From Kofleriaceae bacterium (lineage in GTDB: Bacteria > Myxococcota_A > Polyangia > Haliangiales > Haliangiaceae): a DNA stretch of 42,074 nt. Both the position numbers and the translations under genes were made by a program. The stretch lies in assembly GCA_022842285.1 (NCBI GenBank), contig JALHPV010000025.1:1-42074 (forward strand). The letters run 5' to 3'. Positions 23,544 to 41,960 of the stretch are shown here, piece by piece (within the stretch, counting starts at the first letter, position 1; every line of letters starts with the position of its first letter). The notes below the pieces were generated by a model. The model saw nothing but the letters and a program-made list of their open reading frames with translations. It had not been told where the DNA came from and did not search any database.

Positions 23544-24903
23544 GGCTCGATTTGATCACGGTGGCATCCTCGGAGATGTGGAGCGGAATCTCTTCTTCGA
23601 TCATCTCGGCGATGACCTCGTCGACGCGAATCGTATGATCGGCGCTGGCCAGCTCGCCGAAGAGGCCGAGGAGGGTGGCTTGCTGGAGTGACTCGGCCCC
23701 CCGGTCGATCGCGTCGCCGAGCGACTCCCCGGGGGCGGGCGCGAAGAGACTGATGGCGCCATCGAAACACTCTTCGCGCAGCGCCATCGCCGCGCGGGCC
23801 GCGGTCATCGCGCCGGCCTTCCCACTCTCGGGCGAGGCCATCACGACCGAGCCGTCCTCGAGCATGAAGCTCTCGAGGCCGAAGCGATCCGAGATGCGCT
23901 TGACCGAGCCGGCTGCGTCGGCGGGTTCCTCCGCGGGGGCCTCGGAGGCCTCATCGTACTGCGGCATCACCGAGAAGAAGATGTAGCTCGGTCCGTCCGG
24001 CGGCGGCTTCGTGCCGCTGGCGGCCCGCGGAGGAACCGCGACGGTGGGCCCTTCTTTCTGGCCCCCGCGCCGCCGCTTCCCGTCGATGATCGGGGGGAGG
24101 GCGCGCAGCCACGCCGCCGCCAGGTCGCCGGTCGGAGGACGATCTTGCGGGCGCTTGCTCAACATCGCGTGCACGAGGTCCACGAGCGCCGACGGTGCTT
24201 CGGGGCAGTGGGTATCCAGGCGCTCGGGCTGCGACATGAGCACCTTGGCGCGCACGGCCTCGGGCGTCCGTCCGGCGAACGCCTTGCGCCCGGTCAGGGC
24301 CTCGTAGAGCACGCAGCCAAGGGCCCAGACGTCGGCGTTCGCGTCGATGACGACCGAGCCTCGCGCCTGCTCGGGAGACATGTACGACGGCGTTCCGATC
24401 AGGACGCCAGTACGCGTGAGCACGCCCGCATCTGCGGCCAGTCGGGCGATGCCGAAGTCGACGAGCTTGATGCGGTCGACCTCGCCCCGATCGAGGATCA
24501 GATTTCCTGGCTTCACGTCGCGATGCACGATGCCGAGGCGGTGAGCGGCCCCGAGGGCATCGGCGATCCCAATCGCCATCTGGATGGCCTCCGTCGGAAC
24601 GAAGCCAATGGTGACGAGCTGCGTTCCCACCGTGATGCCGTCGACCCACTCCTGGACCAGGTAGTGGATTCCGTCGGAGACCCCATGGGTCACGTAGCGC
24701 ACGACGTTCGGATGGTGGAGCTGCGCGAGCATGGCCGCTTCGCGCTCGAACCGCGCGACGTCGGGGCGCCCGTCGAGGGAGAGGACCTTCACCGCCACCT
24801 GAGATCCCGTCGTCAGGTCGCGAGCGCGCCATACCGAACCCATGCCTCCTCGGGCCGCTTGCTGGGTCAGCTCGAAGCGCTCCCCGAGGACTGTGGGACG
24901 CAC
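23527..24903 (-). CDS. Soluble Ser/Thr protein kinase
   Basis: 458 residues if started at GTG 24903. Kinase domain ~8-270: ARGGMGSVWRA, Lys39 in VAVKV, HRDVKPGN (Asp129), DFG 149-151, GTPSYMSPEQ, all intact. No membrane helix is seen. The C-terminal ~170 residues are acidic and carry no domain I recognise (DRFGLESFMLEDGSVVM, RVDEVIAEMIEEEIPLH). I prefer GTG 24903 because TATACT ends exactly 6 nt before it and the protein then begins right at the kinase fold. ATG 24933, ten codons up, is the alternative but would sit 15 bp from the divergent gene. As first gene of the leftward operon, it probably phosphorylates the FHA activator that follows. Confidence 0.87.
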   Translation of the reverse strand: MRPTVLGERFELTQQAARGGMGSVWRARDLTTGSQVAVKVLSLDGRPDVARFEREAAMLAQLHHPNVVRYVTHGVSDGIHYLVQEWVDGITVGTQLVTIGFVPTEAIQMAIGIADALGAAHRLGIVHRDVKPGNLILDRGEVDRIKLVDFGIARLAADAGVLTRTGVLIGTPSYMSPEQARGSVVIDANADVWALGCVLYEALTGRKAFAGRTPEAVRAKVLMSQPERLDTHCPEAPSALVDLVHAMLSKRPQDRPPTGDLAAAWLRALPPIIDGKRRRGGQKEGPTVAVPPRAASGTKPPPDGPSYIFFSVMPQYDEASEAPAEEPADAAGSVKRISDRFGLESFMLEDGSVVMASPESGKAGAMTAARAAMALREECFDGAISLFAPAPGESLGDAIDRGAESLQQATLLGLFGELASADHTIRVDEVIAEMIEEEIPLHISEDATVIKSSRGRSR

Positions 24904-24909
24904 GCTTCG

Positions 24910-24933
24910 AGTATACGGGGTTTCTGCTACCAT
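24910..24933. promoter_or_regulatory. Divergent promoter elements between kinase and HlyD-fusion genes
   Basis: GTATAC (24911-24916) is self-complementary. Leftward it gives TATACT followed by 6 nt and GTG 24903. Rightward, TACCAT (24928-24933) precedes ATG 24949 by 15 nt. No convincing -35 is visible on either side. Confidence 0.4.
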
Positions 24934-24948
24934 CGCTCTCTCGGCCAG

Positions 24949-26835
24949 ATGGGTGATTGGGACGAGTCTACCCAGCTCCGCGCACTTCCGTTCGTCGGGA
25001 CCGATCGGATCCTGGTCGCGGAGGCGGACCCACACGTGCGCGCATGGCTCCGCGAGATGCTGGCCGGTCACTTCGGCGTCGAGGAGGTCGAGAGTGGCCG
25101 GGCTGCGCTCGAGCGCCTCACCGTGGAGCCGCCGCGGGTGCTGGTCGTCGGTGCGCAACTCGCCGACATGAGTGGAAGTGTCCTGCTTAGCCATGCGGCG
25201 CGCCATGGCCTGCTCTCGGCGCATACCGGCGGCCCGGTCGCGTTCACCGTCGCGAACATGCTCGGGCAGGCCCCCGAGATCGACGAGAACCTCGTCCCCG
25301 TCTTCTACCGCCTCTCGTATTCGCTCCTGCCCGAGCAGGTGCGCGAGCTCCTCACCCAGGCCATCGCGCGGTTGCCGCCGGTGGTGCAGAAGCGTCCCAC
25401 CGAGGAGGACGCGAAGCTCACGCGGCAGGTCATCGAGCACGCGAAGCGCCTCGGCACGCAGCCCGATCTCAAGAGCGCCACCCGCGTCGCCATCGCCGCC
25501 GTGATCGAGCTCGCGTCGGCGGATCGCGCGCGCTGCCTGTTCTACGACGAGGAAGGGGGCACCCTCTGGTCCGAGACGGATGGCGAGGACCTGACGCATG
25601 CGTCGGCGGGACTGGCGGGTTTCGCCGTGCGTGCGCGCTCGGGCGTCGTGCTGCCCGATGTCTCCGCCGACCGGATCTATATCCGCGAGATCGATGATCC
25701 GCAGGGGACGGGCGGCGAGCGCATGGTCGTGCAGCCGGTGGCCGACCGCGACGGCCGTGTCCACGCCGTCCTGATCGCGGTCCGGCGCGCGAAGTCGCCG
25801 CAGTTCTCGGAAGCCGACCTGCGCAAGCTCGAGGCGCTGGCCGAAGCGTGGGCTCCCTTCATCCATCAGCTCGCCCAGCAGCAAGAGGCCGCGCACATCC
25901 TCGAGCAGCGCGAGGGCAAGAACGAGGTGTTTCGCCAGGAGGCGATCGACCATCTGGTCCGGCGCGGTCAGCGTGGCGACGTGGTGCGCGTGCATCCGGG
26001 CTGGGTCCACGCGGCGTACTGGCTGCTGATCCTGTTCGTCGTGGGGGCCGGTGCCTACGTCGCGTTTGCGCGGGTGTCGCAATGGTCGGAGGGGCCGGCC
26101 GTGATCCGCGTGATGGGGCGAACCGACATCCGCGCCGTCGAGCCGGGGACCGTCACCGCACTCGAGGTCGCGCCGGGAGAGTCCGTCACCGAGGGGCAGA
26201 TCCTCGCGCGTCTCCACGACTCGGAACAAGCGGGCCGGCTGCGGGCCCTCAACACGGAATTCGAACGGCGCCTCGTGGCCTACCTCCAGACACCGGCCGA
26301 ACCGTCCGTGCGACAGGCGCTCTCCTCCTTGGTTACCGAGCGCGAGAGCGCGCAAGCGAGCGTGGAAGCGCGTGCGTTCCGCGCGCCGCATGCGGGCATC
26401 GTCAAAGAAGTCCACGTCGCGAATGGACAGCTCGTCGAGGCCGGCAAGACCATCATCTCGCTCGTCGAGACCGGGGCGACCGAGGGCATGTCGGTCCTCG
26501 CGTTCTTGCCCGGCCAGGACCGCCCCCGGATTCGCGTCGGCCAGCGGCTGCGCTTCACGCTCCCCGGGTACCGCGGTGCGCACATCGAGCTCGACGTCCG
26601 CGCGGTCTCGGCCGAGGTGATCGGCGCGGCCGACGCGCGCGAGCGTTACCTCGGTGATCGCTTTCGCGAGGCGCTGCCCATTCAAGGCTCGGTGGTCGTC
26701 ATCGAGGGATCTCTCGTCACGACCACGTTTCGCGCCGACGACGAGACCTACGAGTTGCACGACGGCATGACGGGGTTCGCCGAGGTCCGCCTCCAGTCGC
26801 GCACCATCCTCGAAACCCTGTTGCCGGGGGGCTGA
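24949..26835 (+). CDS. Pseudo-receiver-GAF-HlyD fusion adaptor for peptide export
   Basis: 628 residues with an unusual order. Residues ~18-140 look like a response-regulator receiver (DRILVAEADPHVRAWLREML), but the strand that should end in the phospho-acceptor Asp reads VLVVGAQLADMSG, with Gly68 in its place. The conserved Lys is also not seen, so it should not be phosphorylated normally. Residues ~175-310 form a GAF domain (RCLFYDEEGGTLWSE, SGVVLPDVSAD, VQPVADRDGRVHAVLIAV). One membrane helix follows (~355-375). The periplasmic part is HlyD-type with two lipoyl half-motifs (VEPGTVTALEVAPGESVTEG and RAPHAGIVKEVHVANGQLVE). The stop overlaps the ABC exporter start (TGATG). I infer an exporter adaptor that reads a cytosolic ligand or partner. 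Confidence 0.85.
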   Translation: MGDWDESTQLRALPFVGTDRILVAEADPHVRAWLREMLAGHFGVEEVESGRAALERLTVEPPRVLVVGAQLADMSGSVLLSHAARHGLLSAHTGGPVAFTVANMLGQAPEIDENLVPVFYRLSYSLLPEQVRELLTQAIARLPPVVQKRPTEEDAKLTRQVIEHAKRLGTQPDLKSATRVAIAAVIELASADRARCLFYDEEGGTLWSETDGEDLTHASAGLAGFAVRARSGVVLPDVSADRIYIREIDDPQGTGGERMVVQPVADRDGRVHAVLIAVRRAKSPQFSEADLRKLEALAEAWAPFIHQLAQQQEAAHILEQREGKNEVFRQEAIDHLVRRGQRGDVVRVHPGWVHAAYWLLILFVVGAGAYVAFARVSQWSEGPAVIRVMGRTDIRAVEPGTVTALEVAPGESVTEGQILARLHDSEQAGRLRALNTEFERRLVAYLQTPAEPSVRQALSSLVTERESAQASVEARAFRAPHAGIVKEVHVANGQLVEAGKTIISLVETGATEGMSVLAFLPGQDRPRIRVGQRLRFTLPGYRGAHIELDVRAVSAEVIGAADARERYLGDRFREALPIQGSVVVIEGSLVTTTFRADDETYELHDGMTGFAEVRLQSRTILETLLPGG

Positions 26836-29096
26836 TGAGTATTCCCCGCGACAACGATCCCACCGACGCTCCCACCACCAGTCCGGACGCCGCGGCCGAG
26901 CTGTTCCCCTCGCTCGAGCGCCTCGCGGCCGAGCGGAAGGGCACCATCCCCTACGTCCAGCAGCTCGAATGGACCGACTGCGGTCCGGCGAGCCTCGCGA
27001 TGGTGCTGAAGTACCTGGGACGCGACGTCACTCTCGACGAAGTACGGGAGGTCGTGGGGAGTGGACGCGAGGGTTCGGATGCGCTGGCCCTCATGAAGGG
27101 AGCCGAGTGGTACGGGCTCACCGCGCGCGGCATCTCGCTCGACATCGAGCACTTTCGCTTCCTGCCGACGGGCTCGATCCTTCACTGGGAGTTCGACCAC
27201 TACGTCGTCTTCGAGAAGAACCTGAAGGACGGCATTCAGATCGTGGATCCGGGCCGGGGTCGGCGCGTGATCCCCCTGAAGCAGCTGCGCACGGCATTCA
27301 CCGGCGTGGCCCTGGTCTTCGAGCGGACCGACAAGTTCGTCGAGCGCAAGGCGGGCTCGGGGCGGTGGTCCTGGTACATCTCGCAGATCGCGGGCCAGCG
27401 CTCGCTCGTGACGCGCGTGATGGTGATGTCGCTGCTGCTGCGCGTGTTCGCACTCGCGGTTCCGCTGCTCACGGCCGTCATCGTCGACCGCGTGATCCCG
27501 CGCGGCGACTACACCCTGATGCTCGTCGTCGTGGCTGGTCTCGTCGGCACGATGGCCTTCCAGATCTTGACGTCCTTGGTCCGCACGCACCTCCTCCTGC
27601 AGATGCGAACGAACCTCGATACCCGGCTCACGCTCGGCTTCGTGGACTACCTCACCCGTCTCCCGTTCGACTTCTTTCAGCGTCGGTCGACCGGCGACCT
27701 GATGCAGCGTGTGAACAACAACTCGACGATCCGCGAGGTGCTCACGACCAGCGTGCTCTCGACGCTGCTCGATGGGCTGTTCGTCACCCTGTACGCGGTG
27801 CTGATCTTCGTGATCTCGCCGCTGCTCGGCGCGATCGTCCTGGGACTCGGAGCGGTCCAGCTCATCGTGCTCGCCATCGCGCGGCGCAAGTATCGCGATC
27901 AGCTCGTCCGGTCGCTCGATGCGCAGGCGCGCTCGCAGTCGTACCTGATCGAGATGTTTGCCGGCATGTCGACGTTGAAGGCGTGTGCGGCCGAGAGTCG
28001 CGCCGTCGAGCGCTGGAGCAACCTGTACGTCGACGAGCTCAACGTCTCCCTGGAGCGCGGGCGGACGGCGGCGCGTGTCGACGCGATGATGACCGTCCTC
28101 ACGAGTGGGTCGCCGCTCCTGATCTTCGTGATCGGGGCCGTCCAGGTCGTGGACAACTCGATGTCGCTCGGCACGATGCTGGCGGTGAACTCCGTGGCCA
28201 TCGGGCTCCTGACCCCGCTGGCCGCTCTGGTGAACAGCGGGCTCCAGCTCCAGCTCCTCGGCGGCTACATGGATCGCGTCGAGGACGTACTGAACACGAA
28301 GCCGGAGCAGTCGGGGCAGGACGCGGCGCGCGTCCCCCAGCTCACGGGTCGCGTCACCCTCCAGGACGTCTCCTTCCGGTACAGCGAGCGGGCTCCCCTC
28401 GTCGTGCGCGGGGTCTCGGTCGATATCCGCGCCGGCTCCTCGGTGGCCATCGTGGGGCGGTCGGGATGCGGCAAGTCCACGCTCGCGGCGATGATCGCGG
28501 GCCTGTATCGCCCGGTCGAGGGTCGCATCCTCTTCGACGGCAATGACCTCATGCGCCTCGACCTGCGGTCCCTCCGGCGTCAGCTCGGCATCGTGTTCCA
28601 GCAGCCGTATCTGTTCGCGGGCTCGATCCGCAGCAACATCGCGCTGACCGATCCGTCGATCCCGCTCGACCGCGTGATGAATGCGGCGAAGGCGGCGGCG
28701 ATTCACGAGGACATCGAGGCGATGGCGATGGGCTACGACACCCTGATCGCCGACGGTGGCTCGTCGCTGTCTGGTGGCCAGCGCCAGCGCATCGCCCTCG
28801 CCCGCGCGCTCGTGCATCGACCGTCCCTCTTGATCCTGGACGAAGCCACGAGTGCGCTCGACTCCGAAACGGAGCGTCAGGTCATGTACAGCCTCGCGCA
28901 GATCCGCTGCACGCGAATCATCCTCGCCCACCGGCTCAGCACCATCGCGAGCGCGGACCAGATCCTCGTCATGGATCACGGCGAGGTCGTGGAGGCGGGC
29001 ACGCACGACGAGCTGATCGCAAAGGGGCAGCTCTACAGCCGGCTGGTCCAGGCCCAGATGCGGCACGCCGCCCCGCCGCCCCGGGGGCCGACGTGA
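26835..29096 (+). CDS. C39-peptidase ABC exporter for a RiPP peptide
   Basis: 753 residues, full length for a peptidase-containing exporter (NHLP/LanT-like). The N-terminal C39 protease (~35-165) has Cys49 in WTDCGPASLAMVLKYLG, His122 in HWEFDHYVVF and Asp138 in QIVDPGRG, a complete catalytic set that cuts leaders after a double-glycine-type site. The six-helix membrane domain covers ~185-475. The ATPase (~505-740) has Walker A GRSGCGKST, signature LSGGQRQR, Walker B LLILDEATSALD and the H-loop AHRLST. It should cut and export the peptide encoded at 30077, whose leader ends VSGA. It is coupled to adaptors on both sides by overlapping codons (TGATG and GTGA). Confidence 0.94.
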   Translation: MSIPRDNDPTDAPTTSPDAAAELFPSLERLAAERKGTIPYVQQLEWTDCGPASLAMVLKYLGRDVTLDEVREVVGSGREGSDALALMKGAEWYGLTARGISLDIEHFRFLPTGSILHWEFDHYVVFEKNLKDGIQIVDPGRGRRVIPLKQLRTAFTGVALVFERTDKFVERKAGSGRWSWYISQIAGQRSLVTRVMVMSLLLRVFALAVPLLTAVIVDRVIPRGDYTLMLVVVAGLVGTMAFQILTSLVRTHLLLQMRTNLDTRLTLGFVDYLTRLPFDFFQRRSTGDLMQRVNNNSTIREVLTTSVLSTLLDGLFVTLYAVLIFVISPLLGAIVLGLGAVQLIVLAIARRKYRDQLVRSLDAQARSQSYLIEMFAGMSTLKACAAESRAVERWSNLYVDELNVSLERGRTAARVDAMMTVLTSGSPLLIFVIGAVQVVDNSMSLGTMLAVNSVAIGLLTPLAALVNSGLQLQLLGGYMDRVEDVLNTKPEQSGQDAARVPQLTGRVTLQDVSFRYSERAPLVVRGVSVDIRAGSSVAIVGRSGCGKSTLAAMIAGLYRPVEGRILFDGNDLMRLDLRSLRRQLGIVFQQPYLFAGSIRSNIALTDPSIPLDRVMNAAKAAAIHEDIEAMAMGYDTLIADGGSSLSGGQRQRIALARALVHRPSLLILDEATSALDSETERQVMYSLAQIRCTRIILAHRLSTIASADQILVMDHGEVVEAGTHDELIAKGQLYSRLVQAQMRHAAPPPRGPT

Positions 29097-29923
29097 GGCG
29101 CGGTATCTGGCTGGTCGTGCTCGCCGCGTGCGGGCGCGGCGATGGGGGCGAGCCGGTGGGCAGTGGCTCCGCGGCCGAACCGACGCCGATCACCCGCATC
29201 GAGCGGCGCGCGGAGACGGCGGAGGCCTCCGGCTGGGTCGGCGTGCTCACGCCGCGCGAGACCATCGAGGTCACAGCGCCGTTCACGAGCAAGGTCGAGA
29301 AGCTCTACGTGCAGCTGGGCGAGGACGTCGCCGTCGATGCACCGCTGGTGCTGCTCGATGCGCGACCGCTCAAGGACGAGCTGGCGACGGCGAAGGCGGC
29401 CTACAAGGAAGCGTCCGTCGCGAGCGCGGCGGCCGCGTCGCGCTACGCCCGCGAGAAACGGGCGCTCAAGGAGAAGGTCGCATCGAAGGCGGATGTCGAT
29501 GCGGCCGCGTTCGAGGCCAGCCAGGCGGCGGCCGCGGTGGGGCAGCACAAGACGAAGATCAGCCAGATCGAGGCGCGCCTGAAGGACACGCGACTCACGT
29601 CGACGATCACCGGGCGCGTGGCCCTGCGCTACGTCGAGGAAGGCGCCCGCGTGACCGAGGGCCAGCCCGTCGTCCGCGTGATCTCGTCGGGCCGGATGTT
29701 CATTCGCTTCGCGATCCCCGGTGCGGAGGCCAAGGCCGTCGCTCCCGGCGCCGCGGTCGAGGTTCGCTTCGACGGGCTGAACCTCCAGGGCGTCGTGAAG
29801 ACGGTCGCGCCCGAGCTCGATGCGGTTTCCCAGATGGTGCTCGCCGAGGCGGAGCTGACCGGGGATGCGAAGGGACTCTCGCCCGGTCAGGTCTGCCGGA
29901 TCGTCGCCGCGTCCCCGAAGTAG
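29093..29923 (+). CDS. Membrane-fusion-protein (HlyD/RND adaptor) lipoprotein
   Basis: 276 residues; the GTG start overlaps the exporter stop. The signal has lipobox LAAC. The lipoyl halves (TAPFTSKVEKLYVQLGEDVAVD and the TITGRVALRYVEEGARVTEG strand) flank a coiled-coil hairpin rich in Ala/Lys/Glu (~95-165). A beta-barrel follows (FIRFAIPGAEAKAVAPGAAV), and the protein ends at VCRIVAAS. It is short and lipid-anchored, closer to RND/MacA-type adaptors than to HlyD. Together with the HlyD fusion upstream it gives the exporter two different adaptors. No outer-membrane channel is encoded in the window, so that part is probably borrowed. Confidence 0.87.
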   Translation: MRRGIWLVVLAACGRGDGGEPVGSGSAAEPTPITRIERRAETAEASGWVGVLTPRETIEVTAPFTSKVEKLYVQLGEDVAVDAPLVLLDARPLKDELATAKAAYKEASVASAAAASRYAREKRALKEKVASKADVDAAAFEASQAAAAVGQHKTKISQIEARLKDTRLTSTITGRVALRYVEEGARVTEGQPVVRVISSGRMFIRFAIPGAEAKAVAPGAAVEVRFDGLNLQGVVKTVAPELDAVSQMVLAEAELTGDAKGLSPGQVCRIVAASPK

Positions 29924-29987: not shown

Positions 29988-30048
29988 GCGACCGGAACCC
30001 TGTCGCAGGACCTGACTGATCACGAGGAGATCCGGAGGCCGCGGATCC

Positions 30049-30062
30049 GGCACGCCGCGTGC
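30049..30062 (+). promoter_or_regulatory. Possible sigma-54 (-24/-12) promoter before the precursor gene
   Basis: GGCACG-CCGC-GTGC matches the -24/-12 consensus GGCACG-N4-TTGC at all but one base, with GG and GC correctly spaced. Transcription would begin near 30074, only 3-4 nt before ATG 30077, giving a nearly leaderless message. That is odd for this promoter class and lowers confidence. Confidence 0.35.
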
Positions 30063-30076
30063 TCTAGAGAAAGCCC

Positions 30077-30388
30077 ATGAAGCGGACCGGCGTACAAAAG
30101 CTCGAGCTCAAGAAGCTGACCGTGAAGCAGCTCTCCGAGGTTTCAGGCGCTGGACACAAGATCGGAACCCGATGGTGCTCGGGAACCTGCATCTGCGCCA
30201 CGACCGGTACTTGCGTCGACGTCAAGGACGAGGCTGGGTACAACGAGTGCGACTACCAGGCCCTCGGCATCGCCGGTTGTGATGGGAGTTGTGTACAGCC
30301 GCAGGGCGGCGGCGGCGGCGGTTGTGGCGGTGGTGGCGGTGGCGGTTGTGGCGGTGGTGGTGAACGCCAACTCGTTTGCCTGGTCTGA
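30077..30388 (+). CDS. RiPP precursor peptide: lanthipeptide-like core plus Gly-Cys tail
   Basis: 103 residues. Residues 1-25 form a leader (KLELKKLTVKQLSEVSGA) resembling class I lanthipeptide and double-glycine leaders. The likely C39 cut is after GA at residue 25. Residues 31-46 (TRWCSGTCICATTGTC) are packed with Ser/Thr and Cys, ideal for LanB/LanC thioether rings. A middle part has Cys58, 68 and 72 but just one Ser. Residues 77-95 are six Gly, Cys83, seven Gly, Cys91, four Gly; the end is ERQLVCLV. In all there are ten Cys against seven Ser/Thr after residue 25, so three or more cysteines cannot be lanthionine partners and may be MNIO substrates. The tail recalls microcin B17. It is the only small Cys-rich frame in the cluster. 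Confidence 0.85.
   Translation: MKRTGVQKLELKKLTVKQLSEVSGAGHKIGTRWCSGTCICATTGTCVDVKDEAGYNECDYQALGIAGCDGSCVQPQGGGGGGCGGGGGGGCGGGGERQLVCLV
30305..30361 (+). repeat. GGN simple-sequence tract encoding the Gly-Cys tail
   Basis: A run of ggc/ggt codons interrupted twice by tgt encodes G6-C-G7-C-G4. Such trinucleotide tracts gain or lose codons by slippage, so tail length may vary between strains without breaking the frame. Confidence 0.8.
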
Positions 30389-30393
30389 CCGCA

Positions 30394-31398
30394 CTACGCA
30401 CGAGTCAGGAGTCCGACATCCAGTAGCGCGTCCGCGATCTCGACGGTTGTCATCGCATCAACCTCGGTCGCGAGCACGGCCAGGATCTCGCGCAGCGGCG
30501 CGAGCGTCTTGAACGCCTCCACCACGCGCGCCAGGCGGGCGTCGCTGCCCGCCATGACCGCCTCGCCATCGGCGGTGCAGATCTGAATGGCGCCGTCGAC
30601 CTCGCGGCTCGCGACGCCCGCGAGGAGCTGGTACTGCGCCTCGAGGTCGCGACCAACGGTGACGACGGGGGGCGAGCGGACGTCGATCGGGGGTAGCTCC
30701 ACATCGGCGAGCGAGCCCGCCAGGATGCCGGCTCGCGAGAACCGCTCGATCGTATCGGCCACGGCAGCGAGGCTGGCGGGGATGTTCTCCAGCACGACCT
30801 CGCCGGCCGCGAGCTGAGCGAACAACGCCCGCTGCGCATCGTCGAGGGGGGTGACGATCGCGACCTCGGCCGGCGTGGTCCAGATCACGGCACAGCCGGG
30901 GCGGGCGGCAGGCGGGGAGGTGCGGTCGCGGCCGACGAACCAGCGCGCGATATCGGCGGTGAGCTCGAGCACCCGAACGCCGTCGCCCACGCGCAGGGGG
31001 CCGTCGCGGGTCGGGACCCCGATGGGAGGCTGGTTGAAGAGTGCCCATTCGAGTGTGGCCACCTCGGCGAGCCACGGCCGATCACGTGTGACGTCGTGAG
31101 TCAGCAGATACGCGGCGAAGCCGTCGCCGGCCGGCGCCCAGTCGTACGCGCCCCACGGCGTCGTGCGGTAGTAGGCGGCGGCGAGGGCCGGCCAGGCCTC
31201 GCCCACCACCTGGGCGCACGCCGGAAACGCGAGGCGCAGCTCGCGTGCCCGTCCAGGCTCGAGCGTGTCGTACAGGGCGAGGCGCCGGCCATGGACACCG
31301 GTTGCCGCCTCGCCGTAAACGGCCTCGGCCGTCTCCTCCGGGGTCGCCGTACCGACGAACATCGGCCGCATGTGGGCGAAGAGGTCGTGCAGTTTCAC
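30394..31398 (-). CDS. BufC-like MNIO partner protein (DUF2063 N-terminus)
   Basis: 334 residues; GTG start. The N-terminal ~120 residues show the BufC/HvfC DUF2063 pattern: RRLALYDTLEPGRARELRLAF, FPACAQVVGEAWPALAAAYY, DGFAAYLL and AEVATLEWALFNQP. These proteins bind the precursor leader and present it to a neighbouring DUF692 oxygenase. The remaining ~200 residues probably comprise further helical or winged-helix-like units (TPLDDAQRALFAQLAAGEVV, FSRAGIL), with an unassigned end. It is divergent from the MNIO gene, 37 bp apart, and runs tail-to-tail toward the precursor with a 5-bp gap. The usual order is same-strand, directly downstream of the MNIO gene. Confidence 0.8.
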   Translation of the reverse strand: MKLHDLFAHMRPMFVGTATPEETAEAVYGEAATGVHGRRLALYDTLEPGRARELRLAFPACAQVVGEAWPALAAAYYRTTPWGAYDWAPAGDGFAAYLLTHDVTRDRPWLAEVATLEWALFNQPPIGVPTRDGPLRVGDGVRVLELTADIARWFVGRDRTSPPAARPGCAVIWTTPAEVAIVTPLDDAQRALFAQLAAGEVVLENIPASLAAVADTIERFSRAGILAGSLADVELPPIDVRSPPVVTVGRDLEAQYQLLAGVASREVDGAIQICTADGEAVMAGSDARLARVVEAFKTLAPLREILAVLATEVDAMTTVEIADALLDVGLLTRA

Positions 31399-31435: not shown

Positions 31436-32293
31436 ATGAGGCCGCTCGCAGGCGTAGGGCTCGGGCTTCGCCACGATCACGTGAAGTCGCTCCTCGCGAG
31501 CGAACGGCCTGTCGACTTCATCGAGATCATACCCGAGAACTGGTTGCGTCCTCGGGACCGCGCGGCGCTCGCTCCCTGCATCGAGCGCTGGCCCACGTCG
31601 CCACACAGCGTGCATCTCTCGATCGGCGGCCCGGACCCGATCGATCACGAGTTTCTCGCCGCGATGCGGGCCGCGGTGGCCGCCTGCGACGCCCCGTTCT
31701 TCTCCGACCACCTCTGCTATTCGTCGATCGGTGGCATCCAGACGCGCGAGCTCCTCCCGCTGCCGTTCTCCGACGAGGCGATCGAGCACACCGTCGCGCG
31801 CATCCACGCGGTGAAGCGCGAGCTCGACGTGCCGCTTGTCCTCGAGAACGCCACCTACTATGCGGTCATGCCGGGCTCGACGATGGACGAGGCCCGCTTC
31901 GTCACGACCGTCCTGGCCGAAGGTGACTGCGGCTTCTTGCTCGACGTGAACAACGTCTTCGTCAATGCGCGCAATCACGGCTACGACGCGCGGGCCTTCA
32001 TCGATCAGATGCCCCTCGAGCGGGTCGTGCAGCTCCACGTGGCCGGGCACCACATTGATCAGGACCTCGACACCCTCGTCGATACCCACACCGCCGTGGC
32101 GCGCTCGGAGGTGTGGGAGCTCTTCGAGTACACGCTGCGCCGCGCGGGGCGGATGATCCCGACCATCATCGAGTGGGACGACCCGACCCCGCCGCTCGAG
32201 ACGCTACTCGACGAGGTGGAGCGGGCACGTACTCACGCCGCCCACGCGCTGGCTCAGGGACAGCCGGCCGCGTCGTTCGGCACCACGGCCTGA
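31436..32293 (+). CDS. MNIO-family iron-dependent peptide oxygenase (DUF692)
   Basis: 285 residues, the usual size. The TIM-barrel family landmarks run in order: GVGLGLRHDH, EIIPENW, HLSIGG (His60), SDHLCY (His92), LVLENATYY (Glu138), FLLDVNNVFVNARNHG (Asp170, His181), LHVAGHH (His201-206), DTH (Asp216, His218) and IIEWDD (Glu246). The multi-iron ligands expected of MbnB/BufB-like enzymes all appear to be there. Family members oxidise Cys (to oxazolone-thioamide, thiooxazole and related groups) or other residues of precursor peptides, with a BufC-like partner. Here the partner is the divergent gene. ATG 31436 is chosen; TCAAAT ends 6 nt before it. The 3' end overlaps the opposite kinase gene by 40 bp. 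Confidence 0.93.
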   Translation: MRPLAGVGLGLRHDHVKSLLASERPVDFIEIIPENWLRPRDRAALAPCIERWPTSPHSVHLSIGGPDPIDHEFLAAMRAAVAACDAPFFSDHLCYSSIGGIQTRELLPLPFSDEAIEHTVARIHAVKRELDVPLVLENATYYAVMPGSTMDEARFVTTVLAEGDCGFLLDVNNVFVNARNHGYDARAFIDQMPLERVVQLHVAGHHIDQDLDTLVDTHTAVARSEVWELFEYTLRRAGRMIPTIIEWDDPTPPLETLLDEVERARTHAAHALAQGQPAASFGTTA

Positions 32294-35200
32294 CCCTCGA
32301 GCCGGTACGGGAGGCGGCAGCGCACGAGCTCGGCGAGGTCGCGGGGCGTGATGTTCGAACGGTCCGCACGCCGGACGTCGAGCATCGTGTCGTCGGTGGT
32401 GACGAGGTAGCGGCTGGTCGGATCGAACGCGGCCGCGACGGTGCCGGGCGGAGCGGCGATCCGATCGAGGGGGCGCCAGGTGCGGGCGTCCCAGACGATC
32501 ACGATATCGTCCGCCCCGACCGTCGCCGCGAGCTCGCCGTCGGCACTGATGGTGGTCGAGAGGACGTACGAGCTGTGCGCCGCGATCCGGGCCCGCCGCG
32601 TGTAGCCGGCACCCTCCGCCGCGAAGCGCTCGAGCGAGCCATCGGTCTCGCCGACGATCAGCTCGGTTCCCGAGGGATGCCAGGCGACGTCCGAGGCGTT
32701 CGATCCGAGCGGCAGCCGTGCGAGCTCGCGGCCGTGCACGTCGCGAACGTGAAGCTCGGCCCCGTGGCCGATCGCGACGCGTGATCCGTCCGGGGCGAGG
32801 ACCGCGCGGGACACATCGGGCAGGGTGGCGCGCAGCGCGAGGTCGGGGCCGAGGAGCCAGGCCTGGCTGGGCGCGTCGTCAGAGACCGACACGGCGACGA
32901 TCACCGCGTTCGACCTCGCCCACTCGAGCGACGTCGCCACCCCCGGGAGGGTCACCCGCGCGAGCTCGGTGCCATCGTCGCGATAGGTCACGAGCGAGCG
33001 ATCACGGCCCGCCGCGAGGAGGGTTCCGTCCGGCGCGAAGGCCAGCGCGCTGATGCCCGCGGTCGCGCCGGTCCACGTCGCGCGGAGCTGCCCCGACGCC
33101 GCCACCACGCTGATGGTCCCGGCGGCGTCACCGACCGCGACCCGCTCGCCGGTGGCCGTGACGGCGCGGCACGTGGCGACCGTCGCCGTCGCCACCCGCG
33201 TGACGGCGTGCGTGCCCAGGGACCAGAGCTCGAGGCCACTGTCCGAATGACGGACAGCAAGCTCCCCCGGCGCGAGGAGCGGCGCGGGCACGTACGGGGT
33301 TCCCGTCGGTGCACCCGGCAGCGTGTGGACGGTCTGGCGCCCGAGGTCCCAGACCTTTGCCGTGCCGTCCCAGCTCCCCGACACCATGCGTCGCCCCGTG
33401 AGGTCGACATCGACCGCGAAGAGGTAGCCACTATGCGCGAGCTCGGCGAGGAGTTGCCCGCGCGCCGGATCCCAGACCCGCGCGGAGCCGTCCGCCGATA
33501 CCGTCGCGAGGCGGTCGTTCGCCAGGTACCGCACGCGATTCACCTGAGCGGTGTGTCCCCGCAGCACCTGGACCGCGGTGCCCGTCTCCGGATCCCAGAT
33601 CCGCACGGTGCCGTCGACGCTCGCGGTGGCGACGCGGGTTCCATCGAGGTTCCACACGGCATCGCGGATCGACTTGTCATGACCGCGCAGCACCGCGCCG
33701 GGGCGTCCAGTCTCGGCATCCCAGATCCGCGCGGTCCCATCGACGCTGCCGGTCACGACGCGCCTGCCCGTGGGATCGAAGGCCACGGCGACCACCCCTG
33801 CCTCGTGCCCGACGAGGGTGCGCGCGCGGGGCGGCGTCGTCAGGGACCACACGGTCGCACTGCCGCCACCCGTGGCGTCCTCGACGATCCCGACGGCGAC
33901 CGCCCGGGCGTCGGGGGCGAACGCCGCGACCGTGGACGAACCGGGAGTCTCGGCTCCGAGATCGACGCCCACCCCGGACGCGAGGTTCCACACGCGCACC
34001 TGGCCCGCGGTCGTCGCGACGAGGACATGCCGGCCGTCGCGCGTCACTCCGAGCTGGTTCACCGGCTGCGAGTTGCCCGCGAGCTCGCGGCGCGGGGTGC
34101 CCGTGGCCGCATCGAGCAACTTCACCGTCCCGTCGGGTCCGGCGACGGCCAGCTGCGTATCATCGAGCCACGCCACGAACGTCATGCCCTCTGGCACGGC
34201 GACGGTGCGGGTGGCTTCGCCCGTCGTCGCGTTCCAGACGCGCACGCTGCCGTCGTCGGCGGCGGTGGCGGCGCGCGTGGCGTCGGGCGAAAGCGAGACG
34301 GCGAACACCTGCCCGGTGTGGCCGCGCAGGCGGGCCAGCTCGGGCGCGAGAGGCTCGAGGGCGCGTCCGATCAGGTAGCGCACGGCCACCGTATCGCCGC
34401 CGCCCTGCAGCGCTTGATCGAGATAGAGCAGGGCCTCGGTCGTCCGATCCTCGACGAGTGCGCGGCGGCCTTGCTCGATCTGGCTCTCGAGCAAGCTGCG
34501 GCGGACCTCGCTCTCGCTCGCGATCGCGCGCGCCGAGCTGGCCTCGGCGACGACCCGGTTCGCATCGGCCTCGCTGCGGAGTCGCGCGAAGATCACGAGC
34601 GCGACCACGAGGCCGAGCAGGACGGCCCCGAGCAGGCCCCGCCGCCAGCGTCGACCGCGCGCCGCGTCGGCCACACTCGCCGCGCCGAACGCTTCCTCGA
34701 CGGATGTGAGCGAGCCGGGATAGCGCGCGCGCCAGAGCCGGTACTCGGTGAGCGCTTCGCCACGCCACAGGAGACCGCGCGTCTCGCCCTTGTCGTGCCA
34801 CTGCCGGGCCGCCACGCGAATCTGATCGCGCAGACGCGCGCCCTCGGCATCCTCTTGCCGCCAGCGCACGAGGCGGGGCCACGCCGACAGCAGCGCTTCG
34901 TGCACCACCTCGATGCTCTCGCCCCCGGGCGTCTCCATCGCCACGAGCAGGCGGCCGGTGATGAGCTGCTCGAGCGCCGTCTCGGCGCGCACACCACCGG
35001 AGACTTGCAGCAGCTCGGCCCGGCTCAGCACGGCGCGGGTGCCCTCGGCGGTCACGAGGTGCCGGAACATCTCGCGCACCATCGCCTGGTCCTCGGACGG
35101 CATCGCGGCGAGCGTGCTCTCGGCGTGCTGGGCGAGCGCGCCGCCGACGCCCCCGAGGGCGCGGTAGGCCTTGCGGGTGAGCTGGCGAAACTGCCGATCG

Positions 35201-37635
35201 CGGTACTGCCAGAGCTGGTACGCCGTGAACGACACGAGCGCGAGCGCGGCTGGCTGGGCGGCGACCTCGGCGACCATCTCCTCGGCGAGCTTGCCGTCCT
35301 CGAACTCGTAGCCCGCGCGGCGCGCCGGCTCGACGAGGATGCGCAGCAGGTCGGCCGCCACCGGCGTCGTCAGGAGCTGGAGGCTCGTGGCGAGGCGCTC
35401 GCGAAACACCACGAGCTGCGCGGCGCGCACGAGGAAGTCGTCGCGGAGCGTCACCACGACGCGTACGGCATCGTCGTCGGTGCGCGCGGCGCGCACGAGC
35501 GCATCGGCGTAGACCTCTTGCTCGGTCGGATCGAGGCAGAGCGTGAAGAGCTCCTCGAACTGGTCGATGACGACGAGCAGGCTGGCGCCCTGCGCGCGCG
35601 CGTGGGCTCGCAGGGCGGCGCCGAGGGCATCGCGATCGGCGCGCAACCGGTCCGGGGTGAGCGTGATCCCGAGGTCCGCGTCGATGCGTGCGCAGAGCGT
35701 CGTCAGGGGCGTCGCGCCGGGGCGGGCCACGAGAGAGCGCCACGTATCGCCGAGCGCCGGCAGGACACCGGCGCGTACGAACGAGCTCTTGCCCGCGCCC
35801 GACGGACCGACCACCGCGACGAGCGGCATCGCGCGCAGGCGGTTCACGAAGCCCTCGACCTCGCGCTCGCGACCGAAGAACAGCGAGGCGTCGGCCTCGG
35901 TGAAGGTCATGAGCCCGCGATACGGGGCCGCCTCGTCACCATCCTTGCGGGCTGCGGTGTCTCCGTCGGCCCGCAAGCCCAGGCGCGGCCATGCATCGAG
36001 ATCGCCTCGCGTGAGCCGACCGGGCAGGGCGAGGAGCCGCGCGCCGCCCTGGCGTCGCGGGCCGTCGAGCCAGAACACCTCGGGGGGAGCACCCGGGGCC
36101 GGGGCCCCGACCTGCGCGACGGGGGCGAGATCCGCGACGAGCGCGCCCTGCGCGTCGACGACGATCACGCGGGCCGCCTCCGTGCGCTCGACGCTCGCTC
36201 GCACCGCGATCGGGGCTCGCACGGGTCGTCGCACGCCGCTCCAGTGCTCGCTGCGATCGGGATCGATCACGACCAGTGGATAGCTGGCGAGGAACTGCAG
36301 CGACCGCAGCATCGCGCCCGCGGCCGGGATCGCCGCCACGAGGTACGCGTGGAGCTCGTCGGCGCTCGCGGTCGGGCCGGGATCGGCGACGGCGAGGAGC
36401 ACCTCCATGGCGGTACGCAGGGACGCGCCGCGCTCGAAGAACAGCGCGATCAGCTCGGGCATCGGATGCGCATCACCGATCGTCGCGAACGGACGACCGA
36501 GCTCGCGCGCGAGCTTCCACCAGCCCGCGGCATCGAGGCCCTCGGCGCGGACCTGCTCGAGCAGCGCGACGGTGGCCGGCGCGGTGGGCGGGCCGGCCGC
36601 GCGCAGCGCACACGCGAGTCCGACGAGCGCGACGTACTGCGCGCACGTCTTGGTCGCCTGCAGCAGGGCCTCGCGCGCCTGTGCTGGCGCCCGCGCGACA
36701 TCGAGGGCCGCGACCGCCTCCGCGATCGGCTGCGGCGCTCGCATCACGAGCTCGTCGCGCGTGAGCTCGTCGAGCTGCGGCAAGTTCACCGAGTCGAGCG
36801 ACACCCCCGACGCCTGCATGAGCGCCTCGCCGAACGCCAGCGCCGTCGGAAAGCGCTGGGCCGGCTGCTTGGCGAGCGCCTTCGCGATGGCCTCGTCGAG
36901 GCCCGCCGGGAATGCCGCCCCGAGGGAGGGGGGCTTCGCGCGCGCGTGCTTGGCCGCGATCTCGAGCGGACTCTTGCCGAGGAATGGCGGTGCACCCGTC
37001 AGGAGCTCGTAGGCGACCGCTCCCAGGGCGTAGACGTCGGCGGGCGGGCCGATCGGGATCCGTCCCCCGAGCCAGAGCTCCGGGGCCATGTACAGCGGCG
37101 TGCCCGTCGGCTTGGCCACGCCCGCCACCGTCGTCGCCGGCGCGCGCAGATCGGCGGCGATGCCGAGGTCGAGCAACTTCGGGAACACGCTGCCCGCACG
37201 CGAGACGACCATGACGTTCGCCGGCTTGAGATCGCGGTGCACGATGCCCTGCTCGTGGGCGGTGTGGACCACCTCGCAGAGCCGGCGCAGGAAGGGGATG
37301 GCGCGCTCCAGCGGCAGCGGCCCTTGCTCGGCGAGGAGCACGTCGAGCGGCGTACCCCGCACGAGCTCCATCGCGATCCACAGCAGGTCATCGGCCTCGG
37401 CGCCGAAGGCATACACGTGGGCGGCGAACGGATGATCGATGCGCGATGCGAGCCGGGCCTCGGCGAGGAACCGCTGGGTGGCTTGCGCGTCCCCCGCGGC
37501 CTCCGCGCGTGCGACCTTCACGACGGCCTCGCGCTCGAGCGTGGGCTGCTCGGCGCGAAACACGAGGCCGAACCCACCCTCGCCCAGATGCTCGCGGAGC
37601 ACGAACTCGCCCAGGCGTCGGCCGACCAGCTCCAA
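32254..37635 (-). CDS. Giant Ser/Thr kinase-STAND NTPase-WD40 protein
   Basis: About 1793 residues. Kinase domain ~8-265: LGEGGFGLVFRAEQ, Lys40 (AVVKV), HRDLKPAN (Asp135), DLG at 156-158 instead of DFG, TPLYMAPELW. A long helical middle follows, then an nSTAND1-type NTPase (PYRGLMTFTEADASLFFGRE; P-loop VVGPSGAGKSSF near residue 610; VVIDQFEELF Walker B). One membrane helix lies near 1000-1020, and at least a dozen WD40 blades fill ~1090-1770 (repeats like GSVDGTARIWDAETG). TTG 37635 gives a start right at MELVGRRLGEF; GTG 37674 is the alternative and would overlap lanC. STAND-WD40 proteins assemble on sensing a trigger. It sits inside the RiPP cluster in opposite orientation, so it may regulate the pathway or act as a self-protection sensor; this is inference. 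Confidence 0.88.
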   Translation of the reverse strand: MELVGRRLGEFVLREHLGEGGFGLVFRAEQPTLEREAVVKVARAEAAGDAQATQRFLAEARLASRIDHPFAAHVYAFGAEADDLLWIAMELVRGTPLDVLLAEQGPLPLERAIPFLRRLCEVVHTAHEQGIVHRDLKPANVMVVSRAGSVFPKLLDLGIAADLRAPATTVAGVAKPTGTPLYMAPELWLGGRIPIGPPADVYALGAVAYELLTGAPPFLGKSPLEIAAKHARAKPPSLGAAFPAGLDEAIAKALAKQPAQRFPTALAFGEALMQASGVSLDSVNLPQLDELTRDELVMRAPQPIAEAVAALDVARAPAQAREALLQATKTCAQYVALVGLACALRAAGPPTAPATVALLEQVRAEGLDAAGWWKLARELGRPFATIGDAHPMPELIALFFERGASLRTAMEVLLAVADPGPTASADELHAYLVAAIPAAGAMLRSLQFLASYPLVVIDPDRSEHWSGVRRPVRAPIAVRASVERTEAARVIVVDAQGALVADLAPVAQVGAPAPGAPPEVFWLDGPRRQGGARLLALPGRLTRGDLDAWPRLGLRADGDTAARKDGDEAAPYRGLMTFTEADASLFFGREREVEGFVNRLRAMPLVAVVGPSGAGKSSFVRAGVLPALGDTWRSLVARPGATPLTTLCARIDADLGITLTPDRLRADRDALGAALRAHARAQGASLLVVIDQFEELFTLCLDPTEQEVYADALVRAARTDDDAVRVVVTLRDDFLVRAAQLVVFRERLATSLQLLTTPVAADLLRILVEPARRAGYEFEDGKLAEEMVAEVAAQPAALALVSFTAYQLWQYRDRQFRQLTRKAYRALGGVGGALAQHAESTLAAMPSEDQAMVREMFRHLVTAEGTRAVLSRAELLQVSGGVRAETALEQLITGRLLVAMETPGGESIEVVHEALLSAWPRLVRWRQEDAEGARLRDQIRVAARQWHDKGETRGLLWRGEALTEYRLWRARYPGSLTSVEEAFGAASVADAARGRRWRRGLLGAVLLGLVVALVIFARLRSEADANRVVAEASSARAIASESEVRRSLLESQIEQGRRALVEDRTTEALLYLDQALQGGGDTVAVRYLIGRALEPLAPELARLRGHTGQVFAVSLSPDATRAATAADDGSVRVWNATTGEATRTVAVPEGMTFVAWLDDTQLAVAGPDGTVKLLDAATGTPRRELAGNSQPVNQLGVTRDGRHVLVATTAGQVRVWNLASGVGVDLGAETPGSSTVAAFAPDARAVAVGIVEDATGGGSATVWSLTTPPRARTLVGHEAGVVAVAFDPTGRRVVTGSVDGTARIWDAETGRPGAVLRGHDKSIRDAVWNLDGTRVATASVDGTVRIWDPETGTAVQVLRGHTAQVNRVRYLANDRLATVSADGSARVWDPARGQLLAELAHSGYLFAVDVDLTGRRMVSGSWDGTAKVWDLGRQTVHTLPGAPTGTPYVPAPLLAPGELAVRHSDSGLELWSLGTHAVTRVATATVATCRAVTATGERVAVGDAAGTISVVAASGQLRATWTGATAGISALAFAPDGTLLAAGRDRSLVTYRDDGTELARVTLPGVATSLEWARSNAVIVAVSVSDDAPSQAWLLGPDLALRATLPDVSRAVLAPDGSRVAIGHGAELHVRDVHGRELARLPLGSNASDVAWHPSGTELIVGETDGSLERFAAEGAGYTRRARIAAHSSYVLSTTISADGELAATVGADDIVIVWDARTWRPLDRIAAPPGTVAAAFDPTSRYLVTTDDTMLDVRRADRSNITPRDLAELVRCRLPYRLEGQAVVPNDAAGCP

Positions 37636-37643
37636 CGGTAGCG

Positions 37644-37653
37644 ATGGTATCGT
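37644..37653. promoter_or_regulatory. Overlapping divergent -10 elements between kinase-WD40 and lanC genes
   Basis: Rightward, TATCGT (37648-37653) ends exactly 6 nt before lanC GTG 37660. Leftward, TACCAT (37649-37644) ends 8 nt before TTG 37635. The two hexamers overlap in a near-symmetric GGTATC/GATACC core, the arrangement of a bidirectional promoter. No -35 is obvious. Confidence 0.4.
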
Positions 37654-37659
37654 GAGTTC

Positions 37660-38883
37660 GTGAGCGATGGACACTGGCCGCCGATCCTCACGGGACCGGT
37701 GGCCAGCGCGGCGCGGGCTGCGGCCCGGGCCATCTCCGACGATCTCGCGCGCGAGACGATCGCGGTCGAGGCGGGCGACACCGCGGCGGTGGCGCTGTTC
37801 TTCGCCTACGCCGCGGGCGAATGGGACGACGACGCGACGAACGCGGCCTACGCCCGAGCCGTCGAACGCCTGGTCGCGCAGCTCGATGGGGAGCACTCGT
37901 ACCTGCACCTCTTCGGTGGTCTCGCGGGCGACGGCTGGGTGCTCGCGCACATCGCGGGCGATGGCGCGGGTGATGCGCTGGCGGCGATCGATCGGGCCCT
38001 GCTCGACCAGCTCGCGAGCACGCCGGCCTACGATCTGGGGGAAGGTCTCGTCGGATTCGGGGCCTACTTCGTCGAGCGGCTCGTCAACGACCCCACCGCC
38101 GCCTTGCCCCGCGAGGGCCTCGCCCGCGTCGTGAGCCAGCTCGTCGCTCGCAGCCGCGCCGTGCCCGAGGGCGCCGCCTGGGAGACCACGCGCAGCGGGC
38201 GTACGGTCCTCGATTGCGGCGCCGCGCATGGTGTGGCGGGCGTGATCGCCCTCCTCGGCAAGGCGTTCGACTTCGGGGTCGCTGGCCCGCCCGAGCGAGA
38301 GCTCCTGGCAGCAGCCGTGACCTGGCTGTGGGCCCAGGCCGGGCCGGTCACGCCTCGCGGTCGGTTTCCCGCGCAGGTGAGGGCGCCCGATCCGAGCGAC
38401 GCGGGCCCGGGGCACGCGCCTCATCCGACACGCACGGCGTGGTGCTATGGCGATCCGGGCGTCGCGGTGCTCACCTGGGGGGCGTGTGCGCGCACCGGCG
38501 CGAGCATCGCCGACGCGCGCGAGCTGATGGCGCTCGTGGCCGAGCGTGACCTGAAGGCCACGGGCATCGTCGACGCCGGGCTGTGCCACGGCGCGAGTGG
38601 CCTCGGGCACTTGCTCGGTCGAGCCTACGCCGCATCCGGTGACGTTGCCCTGCGCGCCGCGAGCACGCGGTGGTTCGAGCGCGCGCTCGCGTTCCGCCGC
38701 GAGGGCGGCATCGGAGGGTTCTGGTCGCCGCCGCCCGGTGGCCAGACGGGAGACTGGTCGCCCACCCCCGGGTTCCTCGAGGGCGCCACCGGCATCGGAC
38801 TCGCGCTCCTCGGCGCGCTCGGGACGGCGGAGCCGGCCTGGGACCGGCTCCTGCTCGTCGACCTCCCACCGGCGGGGCAATGA
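37660..38883 (+). CDS. lanC: LanC-like lanthionine cyclase
   Basis: 407 residues, normal for LanC. The double alpha-barrel motifs include GGLAGDGWVLAHI, DLGEGLVGFG, LDCGAAHGVAGVIALL (His190) and TAWCYGDPGVAV. Zinc ligands Cys262 (WCYGDPG), Cys309 and His310 (LCHGASGLGHLL) are all present, as is a late GFLEGATGIGLAL. LanC enzymes add Cys thiols to dehydrated Ser/Thr to form (methyl)lanthionine rings. The stop overlaps the lanB ATG (ATGA), so the two are co-translated. GTG 37660 is preceded by TATCGT 6 nt upstream and no ribosome binding site, suggesting leaderless expression. Order C-then-B is the reverse of nisin-type clusters but common elsewhere. Confidence 0.93.
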   Translation: MSDGHWPPILTGPVASAARAAARAISDDLARETIAVEAGDTAAVALFFAYAAGEWDDDATNAAYARAVERLVAQLDGEHSYLHLFGGLAGDGWVLAHIAGDGAGDALAAIDRALLDQLASTPAYDLGEGLVGFGAYFVERLVNDPTAALPREGLARVVSQLVARSRAVPEGAAWETTRSGRTVLDCGAAHGVAGVIALLGKAFDFGVAGPPERELLAAAVTWLWAQAGPVTPRGRFPAQVRAPDPSDAGPGHAPHPTRTAWCYGDPGVAVLTWGACARTGASIADARELMALVAERDLKATGIVDAGLCHGASGLGHLLGRAYAASGDVALRAASTRWFERALAFRREGGIGGFWSPPPGGQTGDWSPTPGFLEGATGIGLALLGALGTAEPAWDRLLLVDLPPAGQ

Positions 38884-41800: not shown

Positions 41801-41960
41801 GCTGGCGGGGACCGACCTCCCCGAGCTCGCAGGGAGCTTCGTACACATGCACGTGAACCGCGTCCTCGCCGCTTCTCCGCGCGCGCAGGAGCTGGTGCTC
41901 TACGATCTGCTACGCCGTTACTACGACATGGTGGCCGGTAAGCGAAAGCAGGCGCGATGA
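38880..41960 (+). CDS. lanB: Full-length LanB lantibiotic dehydratase
   Basis: 1026 residues. The N-terminal glutamylation domain (~1-700) begins with EHRPLSTCVARVPLLPIETL and has the family signature LARMAARPTPFGLFSTLGVG, then RRHVRLENDYL and an HNYQRGSLAMYRFLGTLA segment near its end. The C-terminal elimination domain (SpaB_C, ~750-1010) shows WLFVKYYAGPSVQDDVLRLL, WFFLRYADPDPHLRVRVEG and EVERYGGASWIETAERIFAAD. Both halves are in one chain, as in NisB, so it should use Glu-tRNA to glutamylate Ser/Thr and then eliminate to Dha/Dhb. It is not the small or split type seen in thiopeptide and pearlin pathways. The ATG overlaps the lanC stop. Confidence 0.94.
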   Translation: MSDRDFEHRPLSTCVARVPLLPIETLVTWVGDAAALRPQLRALVEDPVVREALFIASPVLVGELARWIANPDDPETRGVEQSLVRYLARMAARPTPFGLFSTLGVGRVGGATQLAIGPRATARRHVRLENDYLARAATTLAADPDIAATLVYRPNSSLYRAAGRLRYAEVREEPQRAYHLVELEPTDYLLAVIARAEGGATRAELVATLCADPDIGADNAAAFVDQLVASQILVDPLAPQVTGREPTDPLIEQLAAGGNPRAAEALRAARDQLATISEAPLGIAPAAYEQVVTALEPLGVPVTLDRLVQVDLFRSASELVVGDDVVKEVTRGLALLHRIGAGSDSDGMGAFRTAFTARYDQREMPLVDVLDDEIGIGFGHAKPLAAPLLDVAPPTRPPNRQVAWSARETHLLSLVATGARVLDLTPADEAALARDPMPRLADSFVAPIAIAAASPAALAQGAFLVRILPPDAPGARMLGRFCHGEPAIEALTRELVGEEAARRPDAAFAEIAHLPDGRVGNVLLRPVLRDYEIPYLGRSGLVEAQQLPVTDLLVSVVDGRVVLRSRRLDREVVPCLTTAHNYQRGSLAMYRFLGTLAQQGRATPQWSWGALGDAPRLPRVTSGRVVIARARWVLGASDIGALAAASSLAAGVAALRTRLEWPRWIVLADADNELAVDLDNPLSVASFANLVRGQTTAIVLELFPAPGELAVTSDDGHYVHELQLFYSRPVVAAPVAPVRARPGVIARSFPPGSPWLFVKYYAGPSVQDDVLRLLVPALREVVAAGHATQWFFLRYADPDPHLRVRVEGEAATLLSTVLPRLAEAVAPALEAGIVWRTQLDTYEREVERYGGASWIETAERIFAADSEAAATIIEAYPGAEGTELLWRATLVGIDRMFDDLGLDEAAKRRRITSLRDTFGAEVRMDTDHQRRLGEKYRRVRAEVEAALTESEPALAPARAAFAVRSTAIRALAPALAGTDLPELAGSFVHMHVNRVLAASPRAQELVLYDLLRRYYDMVAGKRKQAR

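Follow-up and report, generated by a model that had tools for sequence, protein, structure and literature searches.

A probable chimeric lanthipeptide precursor with a glycine-cysteine tail, encoded beside LanB, LanC and MNIO genes in a Kofleriaceae bacterium

Here, we describe a locus in a Kofleriaceae bacterium, a soil myxobacterium relative (contig JALHPV010000025.1; the window is the whole 42,074-nucleotide stretch analysed) that encodes a probable chimeric lanthipeptide precursor together with a LanB dehydratase, a LanC cyclase, a C39-peptidase ABC exporter, and an MNIO with a putative DUF2063-type partner. We propose that this one RiPP precursor undergoes two chemistries on different segments. 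LanB would dehydrate Ser/Thr of residues 31-43, and LanC would close (methyl)lanthionine rings with C34, C38, C40 and C46; the MNIO and its partner would form 5-thiooxazole-type groups by oxidising cysteines that stand in a [GS]C-x-[GA] context, with C83 and C91 of the Gly-rich tail the likeliest sites and C68 a possible one; and the exporter would cut after G24-A25 and export a product with a lanthionine head and a metal-binding tail. Thiooxazoles are Cu-binding groups, and it is for this reason that we expect the mature tail to bind metal. We consider it very likely that the precursor is a LanBC substrate and probable that the MNIO and partner act on it, while the complete proposal, a lanthipeptide-thiooxazole hybrid with LanBC acting on the N-terminal core and the MNIO/DUF2063 pair on the C-terminal GCGG cysteines of a metal-binding tail, is put forward tentatively and could as easily fail as hold. 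A preliminary description had read the peptide as a two-part fusion of a lanthipeptide-like core and a microcin B17-like Gly-Cys tail, an interpretation that is probably right in part.

The precursor gene (30077-30388, plus strand, as are the segments below) encodes 103 residues, MKRTGVQKLELKKLTVKQLSEVSGA followed by GHKIGTRWCSGTCICATTGTCVDVKDEAGYNECDYQALGIAGCDGSCVQPQGGGGGGCGGGGGGGCGGGGERQLVCLV. By inspection, its leader (residues 1-25; 30077..30151) is charged and lacks a hydrophobic Sec signal, and it ends in V-S-G-A, a putative C39-peptidase type cleavage site. The lanthionine segment follows (residues 26-46; 30152..30214), with C34, C38, C40 and C46 set among T31, S35, T37, T42 and T43, and then a Cys block (residues 58-72, CDYQALGIAGCDGSC; 30248..30292), in which a motif scan finds a GCDG site at C68. 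The Gly-Cys tail (residues 77-103; 30305..30385) includes G6-C-G7-C-G4-ERQLVCLV, with C83 at 30323-30325, C91 at 30347-30349 and C101 at 30377-30379; its Gly runs use only GGC and GGT codons. The translation agrees with the counts given in the preliminary description: ten cysteines (34, 38, 40, 46, 58, 68, 72, 83, 91 and 101), seven Ser/Thr beyond residue 25 (T31, S35, T37, T42, T43, T45 and S71), and no Ser/Thr near C83, C91 or C101. At least three cysteines are in excess of the Ser/Thr supply, a point in favour of MNIO action on the peptide. DNA encoding GGGGCGGGG occurs in the organism's own 7.9-Mb genome as two neighbouring matches, only at the precursor tail, and the precursor protein matches no NCBIfam model, TIGR04222 included.

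A precursor search of 318 genomes of the class recovered a homologue in only one other, a MAG of the same genus (G003, contig C653); the other Gly-rich matches were rejected as false positives, as were weak precursor matches in G026, G211 and G258 (frames with stops or unrelated repeats), and a search of the genome contig collection gave no match. The G003 peptide reads MKRTGIKKLELKRLTVQQLTEVAGGGHQIATRYCSGTCNCTTSDVCNTTQTGAAGDNNQYADCDYVALGIAGCDGACRADDADQ, then a run of about 22 Gly, then CAAIIMMC, and the exporter genes upstream of it are 63-74% identical to those of the window. We take the precursor to be a real gene because this homologue, 60-67% identical, follows the matching exporter genes in a second genome of the genus. 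Common to the two peptides are seven core cysteines, the block CDYxALGIAGCDGxC, which is free of Ser/Thr, and a poly-Gly tail. Their leaders agree at 18 of 25 positions, ending in V-A-G-G in G003, and in the lanthionine segment all four cysteines and five Ser/Thr positions are kept (T45 is not conserved), as the preliminary description had predicted for residues 31-46. The linker between lanthionine segment and block is variable, with a 5-residue indel, and the block itself is identical at 13 of 15 positions. The precursor thus has three parts rather than the two first described, since residues 58-72, with three cysteines, form a separate conserved block without conserved Ser/Thr. In the tail, the prediction of conserved Cys and variable Gly fails for C83 and C91: the G003 tail is still Gly-rich, but its Gly run is uninterrupted and holds no equivalent of either. 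The C-terminal Cys of G003 was considered as a TglA-like site and dropped, the last Cys of the window peptide standing at -3 and TglB being a short LanB.

Upstream of the window precursor, at 29946-29990, a perfect palindrome CTTCACAGTTTGTGAAG is followed by ATCTGCAC[AG]AT..GTAAAGGC. A counterpart palindrome, GTGCAGATCGATCTGCAC, with the same element after it, lies at a similar distance upstream of the G003 gene (L013, about 4036-4070), and the pattern suggests that the palindrome-containing element is likely a regulatory element common to both precursor genes. A search of 29000-38000 with Rfam gave no RNA family match.

Three exporter genes precede the precursor on the plus strand: a GAF-HlyD fusion subunit (24145..26832; Pfam), which adjoins the C39-ABC gene also in G003, G023 and G029; the C39-peptidase ABC exporter (26835..29096; PF03412, PF00664 and PF00005; NHLM_ABC1 636 bits, below cut-off; 73% identical in G003), whose expected role is leader cleavage and peptide export; and a membrane-fusion protein of RND/HlyD type (29093..29923; TIGR01730 113.5 bits, above cut-off). 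The fusion of a GAF domain to the HlyD adaptor recurs in LanBC clusters of relatives. The LanB and LanC genes named in the preliminary description are confirmed by Pfam. LanC (37660..38883, plus strand; PF05147, E 9e-26) carries WCYG and CHG zinc-ligand motifs that align to LanC structures, and LanB (38670..41960, plus strand; PF04738, E 2e-146; PF14028, E 2e-59) is full length, with glutamylation and elimination domains, and 55.5% identical in G003; translation probably begins downstream of 38670, and the contig ends just past it, at 42074. Both lie 7.3-11.6 kb downstream of the precursor, past a kinase-nSTAND1-WD40 gene on the opposite strand (32254..37650, upper end approximate; Pfam; 597 of 869 aligned positions identical in G003), so the precursor is not in their transcription unit. 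This kinase gene also adjoins LanC in G003.

Although the opposite-strand gene intervenes, the locus and the synteny of the exporter link the precursor to LanB and LanC. The exporter stands before the precursor in both genomes that have one, and relatives repeatedly carry exporter, LanC and LanB as a single cluster (G023/L083 and L098). In G003, LanB and LanC lie on another contig, beside the kinase gene and divergent from it, as in the window; the assembly breaks beside the precursor and inside the kinase gene, leaving a gap between contigs C653 and C1408, and a search of G003 for the WD40 end of the kinase, which would have bridged that gap, gave no match. G023 carries the exporter trio, LanC and LanB in one gene run with a precursor candidate, MKRQDQRKLKLNKVALRQLNEPSLSQVNGGNGYHSSCGVPCGCEPDPFASFLYCAP, whose leader aligns to that of the window with a score of 52 (shuffle mean 21.8, sd 4.0) while the cores are dissimilar. 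This candidate has neither block nor tail, and G023, which is 75% complete, has no detected MNIO; the case, a single one, agrees with the view that block and tail accompany the MNIO. Together, the conserved Cys and Ser/Thr of the homologue and the leader shared with a LanBC/exporter precursor argue for the proposed action of LanB and LanC on residues 31-46. As in class I lanthipeptides with a C39 ABC exporter, the locus encodes a LanB with both domains, a LanC with zinc-ligand motifs, a peptidase-containing exporter, and a precursor with a KLxLKKLTVxxL...G[GA]-type leader and a Cys/Ser/Thr core. It differs from them in the long extension formed by Cys block and Gly-Cys tail, in the Cys excess, and in the presence of an MNIO with a putative DUF2063 partner. 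Elsewhere, an Allomuricauda ORF that resembles a class I lanthipeptide precursor (L137:10827-11033) contains a Gly6 stretch, SAGGGGGGSAATHNPKC, without an MNIO in its vicinity.

The MNIO gene (31436..32293, plus strand; the ORF opens at 31370, with the domain and the likely start near 31436) encodes a member of the MbnB_TglH_ChrH family (PF05114, E 3.4e-89, 299 bits against a cut-off of 25) that keeps the active-site and metal-binding His/Asp/Glu motifs in an alignment to 3bww. We place it in the HvfB/BufB group without claiming equivalog membership, since it scores below the curated cut-offs for both BufB (264.2 bits; cut-off 310) and HvfB (257.4 bits; cut-off 360). Its putative partner, an HvfC-like relative of PME type 1 proteins (30394..31398, minus strand), is divergent from the MNIO gene and separated from the end of the precursor by 6 bp. 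This protein falls short of PF09836 (23.6 bits, cut-off 27.2; E 6e-5); the PME encoded next to the closest MNIO relative, in G125, is 30% identical to it (E 8e-16) and does pass PF09836. A phmmer search of the PDB with the partner gave no match, and an AlphaFold2 model made without an alignment was unusable (pLDDT 37).

The closest MNIO relatives, 51-57% identical, come from other families of the class, and most have a DUF2063 partner. A maximum-likelihood tree puts the window MNIO in a clade with support 93/86 (inner fork 96/95); the recognised precursors of this clade (G090, G120, G122, G124 and G132) begin like signal peptides and carry EKSCGGDK, EKGCGGDK or KSCSGDK repeats. All 15 cysteines of these five precursors stand in a [GS]C-x-[GA] context. 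In the window precursor only C68 (GCDG), C83 and C91 (both GCGG) fit this context, all three outside the lanthionine segment, and in the G003 homologue only the GCDG and GCAA sites do. Gly-flanked cysteines are thus favoured as MNIO sites, yet the match is moderate evidence from sequence, because the rule was set after the relatives' precursors had been viewed and a Gly-rich tail meets it easily; in addition, Lys or Glu stands close to the Cys in the clade precursors and is lacking in the window tail. Across the class we also noted signal-peptide precursors with EKSCGGDK/EKGCGGDK repeats adjoining MNIO genes, mostly with DUF2063 as well (L245, L246, L249, L250 and L251), an EGKCG-repeat variant, and, likewise adjoining MNIO genes, signal-peptide proteins whose repeats are AGCPGTE/AGCPT or CPAVDAGCPAG (L252, L254 and L255; L061 and L062).

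A further parallel comes from proteins with (GGGGGC)n tails. A search of the 318 genomes for DNA encoding GGGGCGGGG found tandem sites, and 20 loci were chosen, mostly for tandem matches. All 20 encode C-terminal Gly-Cys tails (for example SSSSCGGGGGCGGGGGCGGGGGC), and at 17 of them an MNIO lies no more than about 3 kb from the tailed protein, all in the same class (L194-L201, L203-L210 and L212); only one of these loci, L194 in G012, is from the window's own genus. Eight of ten tailed proteins scanned match TIGR04222, five above cut-off, a family whose members are proposed MNIO substrates (PMC12452194). These proteins resemble the window peptide in their C-terminal (G4-7 C)n tail and nearby MNIO gene, and differ in being large membrane proteins. 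Their adjacency to MNIOs again favours Gly-flanked Cys as MNIO sites; since their MNIOs form a distinct, strongly supported clade from that of the window, the parallel is an analogy of substrate type, not of descent.

We infer that the MNIO works on this precursor because MNIO and partner sit inside an otherwise conserved cluster, between precursor and LanC, with no other candidate Cys-rich substrate ORF seen near them at the locus. A further point in favour is that an ORF at the same place and orientation beside the G003 precursor resembles the window partner, having 84 residues in common with its C-terminal domain (two-sequence BLASTP, E 3e-5). An alternative, which we think rather unlikely, is that MNIO and partner are unrelated neighbours with their substrate elsewhere in the genome; the peptide would then be a large class I lanthipeptide of the ordinary kind, its extra cysteines paired in disulfides or left free. 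MNIO genes are widespread in the class, occurring in 231 of 318 genomes, and the organism's own genome has four. Eight diverse MNIO queries found no MNIO in the surroundings (up to 10 kb; 1.42 Mb altogether) of 80 related LanB genes, although the same queries recover 14 of 14 control loci; the LanBC-MNIO pairing is thus rare, does not form a recurring cluster, and may be accidental. The divergent orientation of MNIO and partner, as opposed to an MNIO directly behind the precursor in one operon, fits this alternative, as does the observation that PME1-type pairs usually serve signal-peptide precursors (PMC12452194), whereas this precursor has a C39 leader. Against it count the position of the pair, the fact that no other Cys-rich substrate was seen in the locus, the partner-like ORF in G003, and the clade's own motif context around cysteines of the precursor. 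The other MNIOs of G003 are of different types from that of the window, and one on contig C1259, considered as the missing partner enzyme, was rejected as belonging to a Buf2-type locus.

If the MNIO does act on the precursor, it could instead modify the C58/C68/C72 block, leaving the Gly tail as a flexible spacer or an export/stability tail with drifting cysteines. The block is the best-conserved core stretch, its GCDG site fits the clade motif in both homologues, and the only homologue has no Gly-flanked inner tail cysteines; slippage would give the GGC/GGT-only codons of the tail, TGT is one base from GGT, and the Allomuricauda ORF shows a Gly6 run where no MNIO is near. Yet the block cysteines are followed by Asp or Val rather than Gly, and the clade precursors place their cysteines in low-complexity, Gly-containing repeats that are closer to the tail than to the block, and we judge modification of the block in place of the tail unlikely. 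That the MNIO acts on the Gly-flanked cysteines, as first suggested, is backed by the SCGG/GCGG repeats of clade precursors and by the (GGGGGC)n tails near MNIOs, and is set back by the absence of C83 and C91 in G003; nor can the division of labour be read straight from the sequence, as had been claimed, when the conserved block is also a good MNIO target. The likeness to microcin B17 drawn at the outset lies in the poly-Gly flanks of the cysteines and is superficial; on that model the tail cysteines would become thiazoles through cyclodehydration and oxidation. Among the main window ORFs, a Pfam scan detected neither a YcaO cyclodehydratase nor an McbC-like oxidase, the enzyme at hand is an MNIO, whose chemistry is oxidation rather than cyclodehydration, and thiazole formation by MNIOs is not described in the literature examined; we therefore reject the microcin B17 model as highly improbable.

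By analogy, HvfB/BufB-type chemistry, a four-electron oxidation of Cys to 5-thiooxazole (PMC12668002), would fit better. Captophorins/oxazolin (HvfABC), fontiphorin (FonABC) and bufferins (BufABC) are 5-thiooxazole RiPPs made by an MNIO and a DUF2063 partner (PMC12668002, PMC12452194). The window shares with them an MNIO of the same group, a putative DUF2063-type partner and Gly-adjacent cysteines in low-complexity sequence, and the nearest relatives of its MNIO serve precursors with SCGG/GCGG repeats; these systems differ in having Sec signal peptides and no lanthionine machinery, in place of a C39 leader and a LanBC segment, and in the Lys of GKCG or KSCGG that the window tail lacks. Two further systems combine chemistries in comparable ways. 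Nocathioamides, as cited in PMC13174530, join lanthionine and a second RiPP chemistry on one precursor, the second enzyme there being a YcaO-TfuA (thioamide) rather than an MNIO, and pearlins combine a LanB-superfamily protein and an MNIO (TglB and TglHI), although TglB is short, lacks the elimination domain and adds a C-terminal Cys by tRNA ligation, with no LanC (PMC11002830). A gene pair tied to a new lanthipeptide class has also been seen beside DUF692 clusters (PMC7794033). The novelty of the window is lowered by these precedents, the pearlins, the DUF692-adjacent lanthipeptide gene pair and the YcaO chimeric lanthipeptides; in the open-access literature searched, where subscription papers are mostly missing, we found no full LanB, LanC and MNIO hybrid.

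Our comparison ties three Gly/Cys-rich repeat types of the class, (GGGGGC)n, KSCGG/KGCGG and GCPG, to MNIO genes. If the proposed lanthipeptide-thiooxazole hybrid is real, it would be a new combination of RiPP chemistries: a natural peptide in which lanthionine formation and MNIO oxidation are kept to separate segments, showing how two enzyme systems share one Cys-rich substrate without cross-reaction. It would also equip an exported lanthipeptide with what is likely a copper-binding module, and offer engineers a modular tail.
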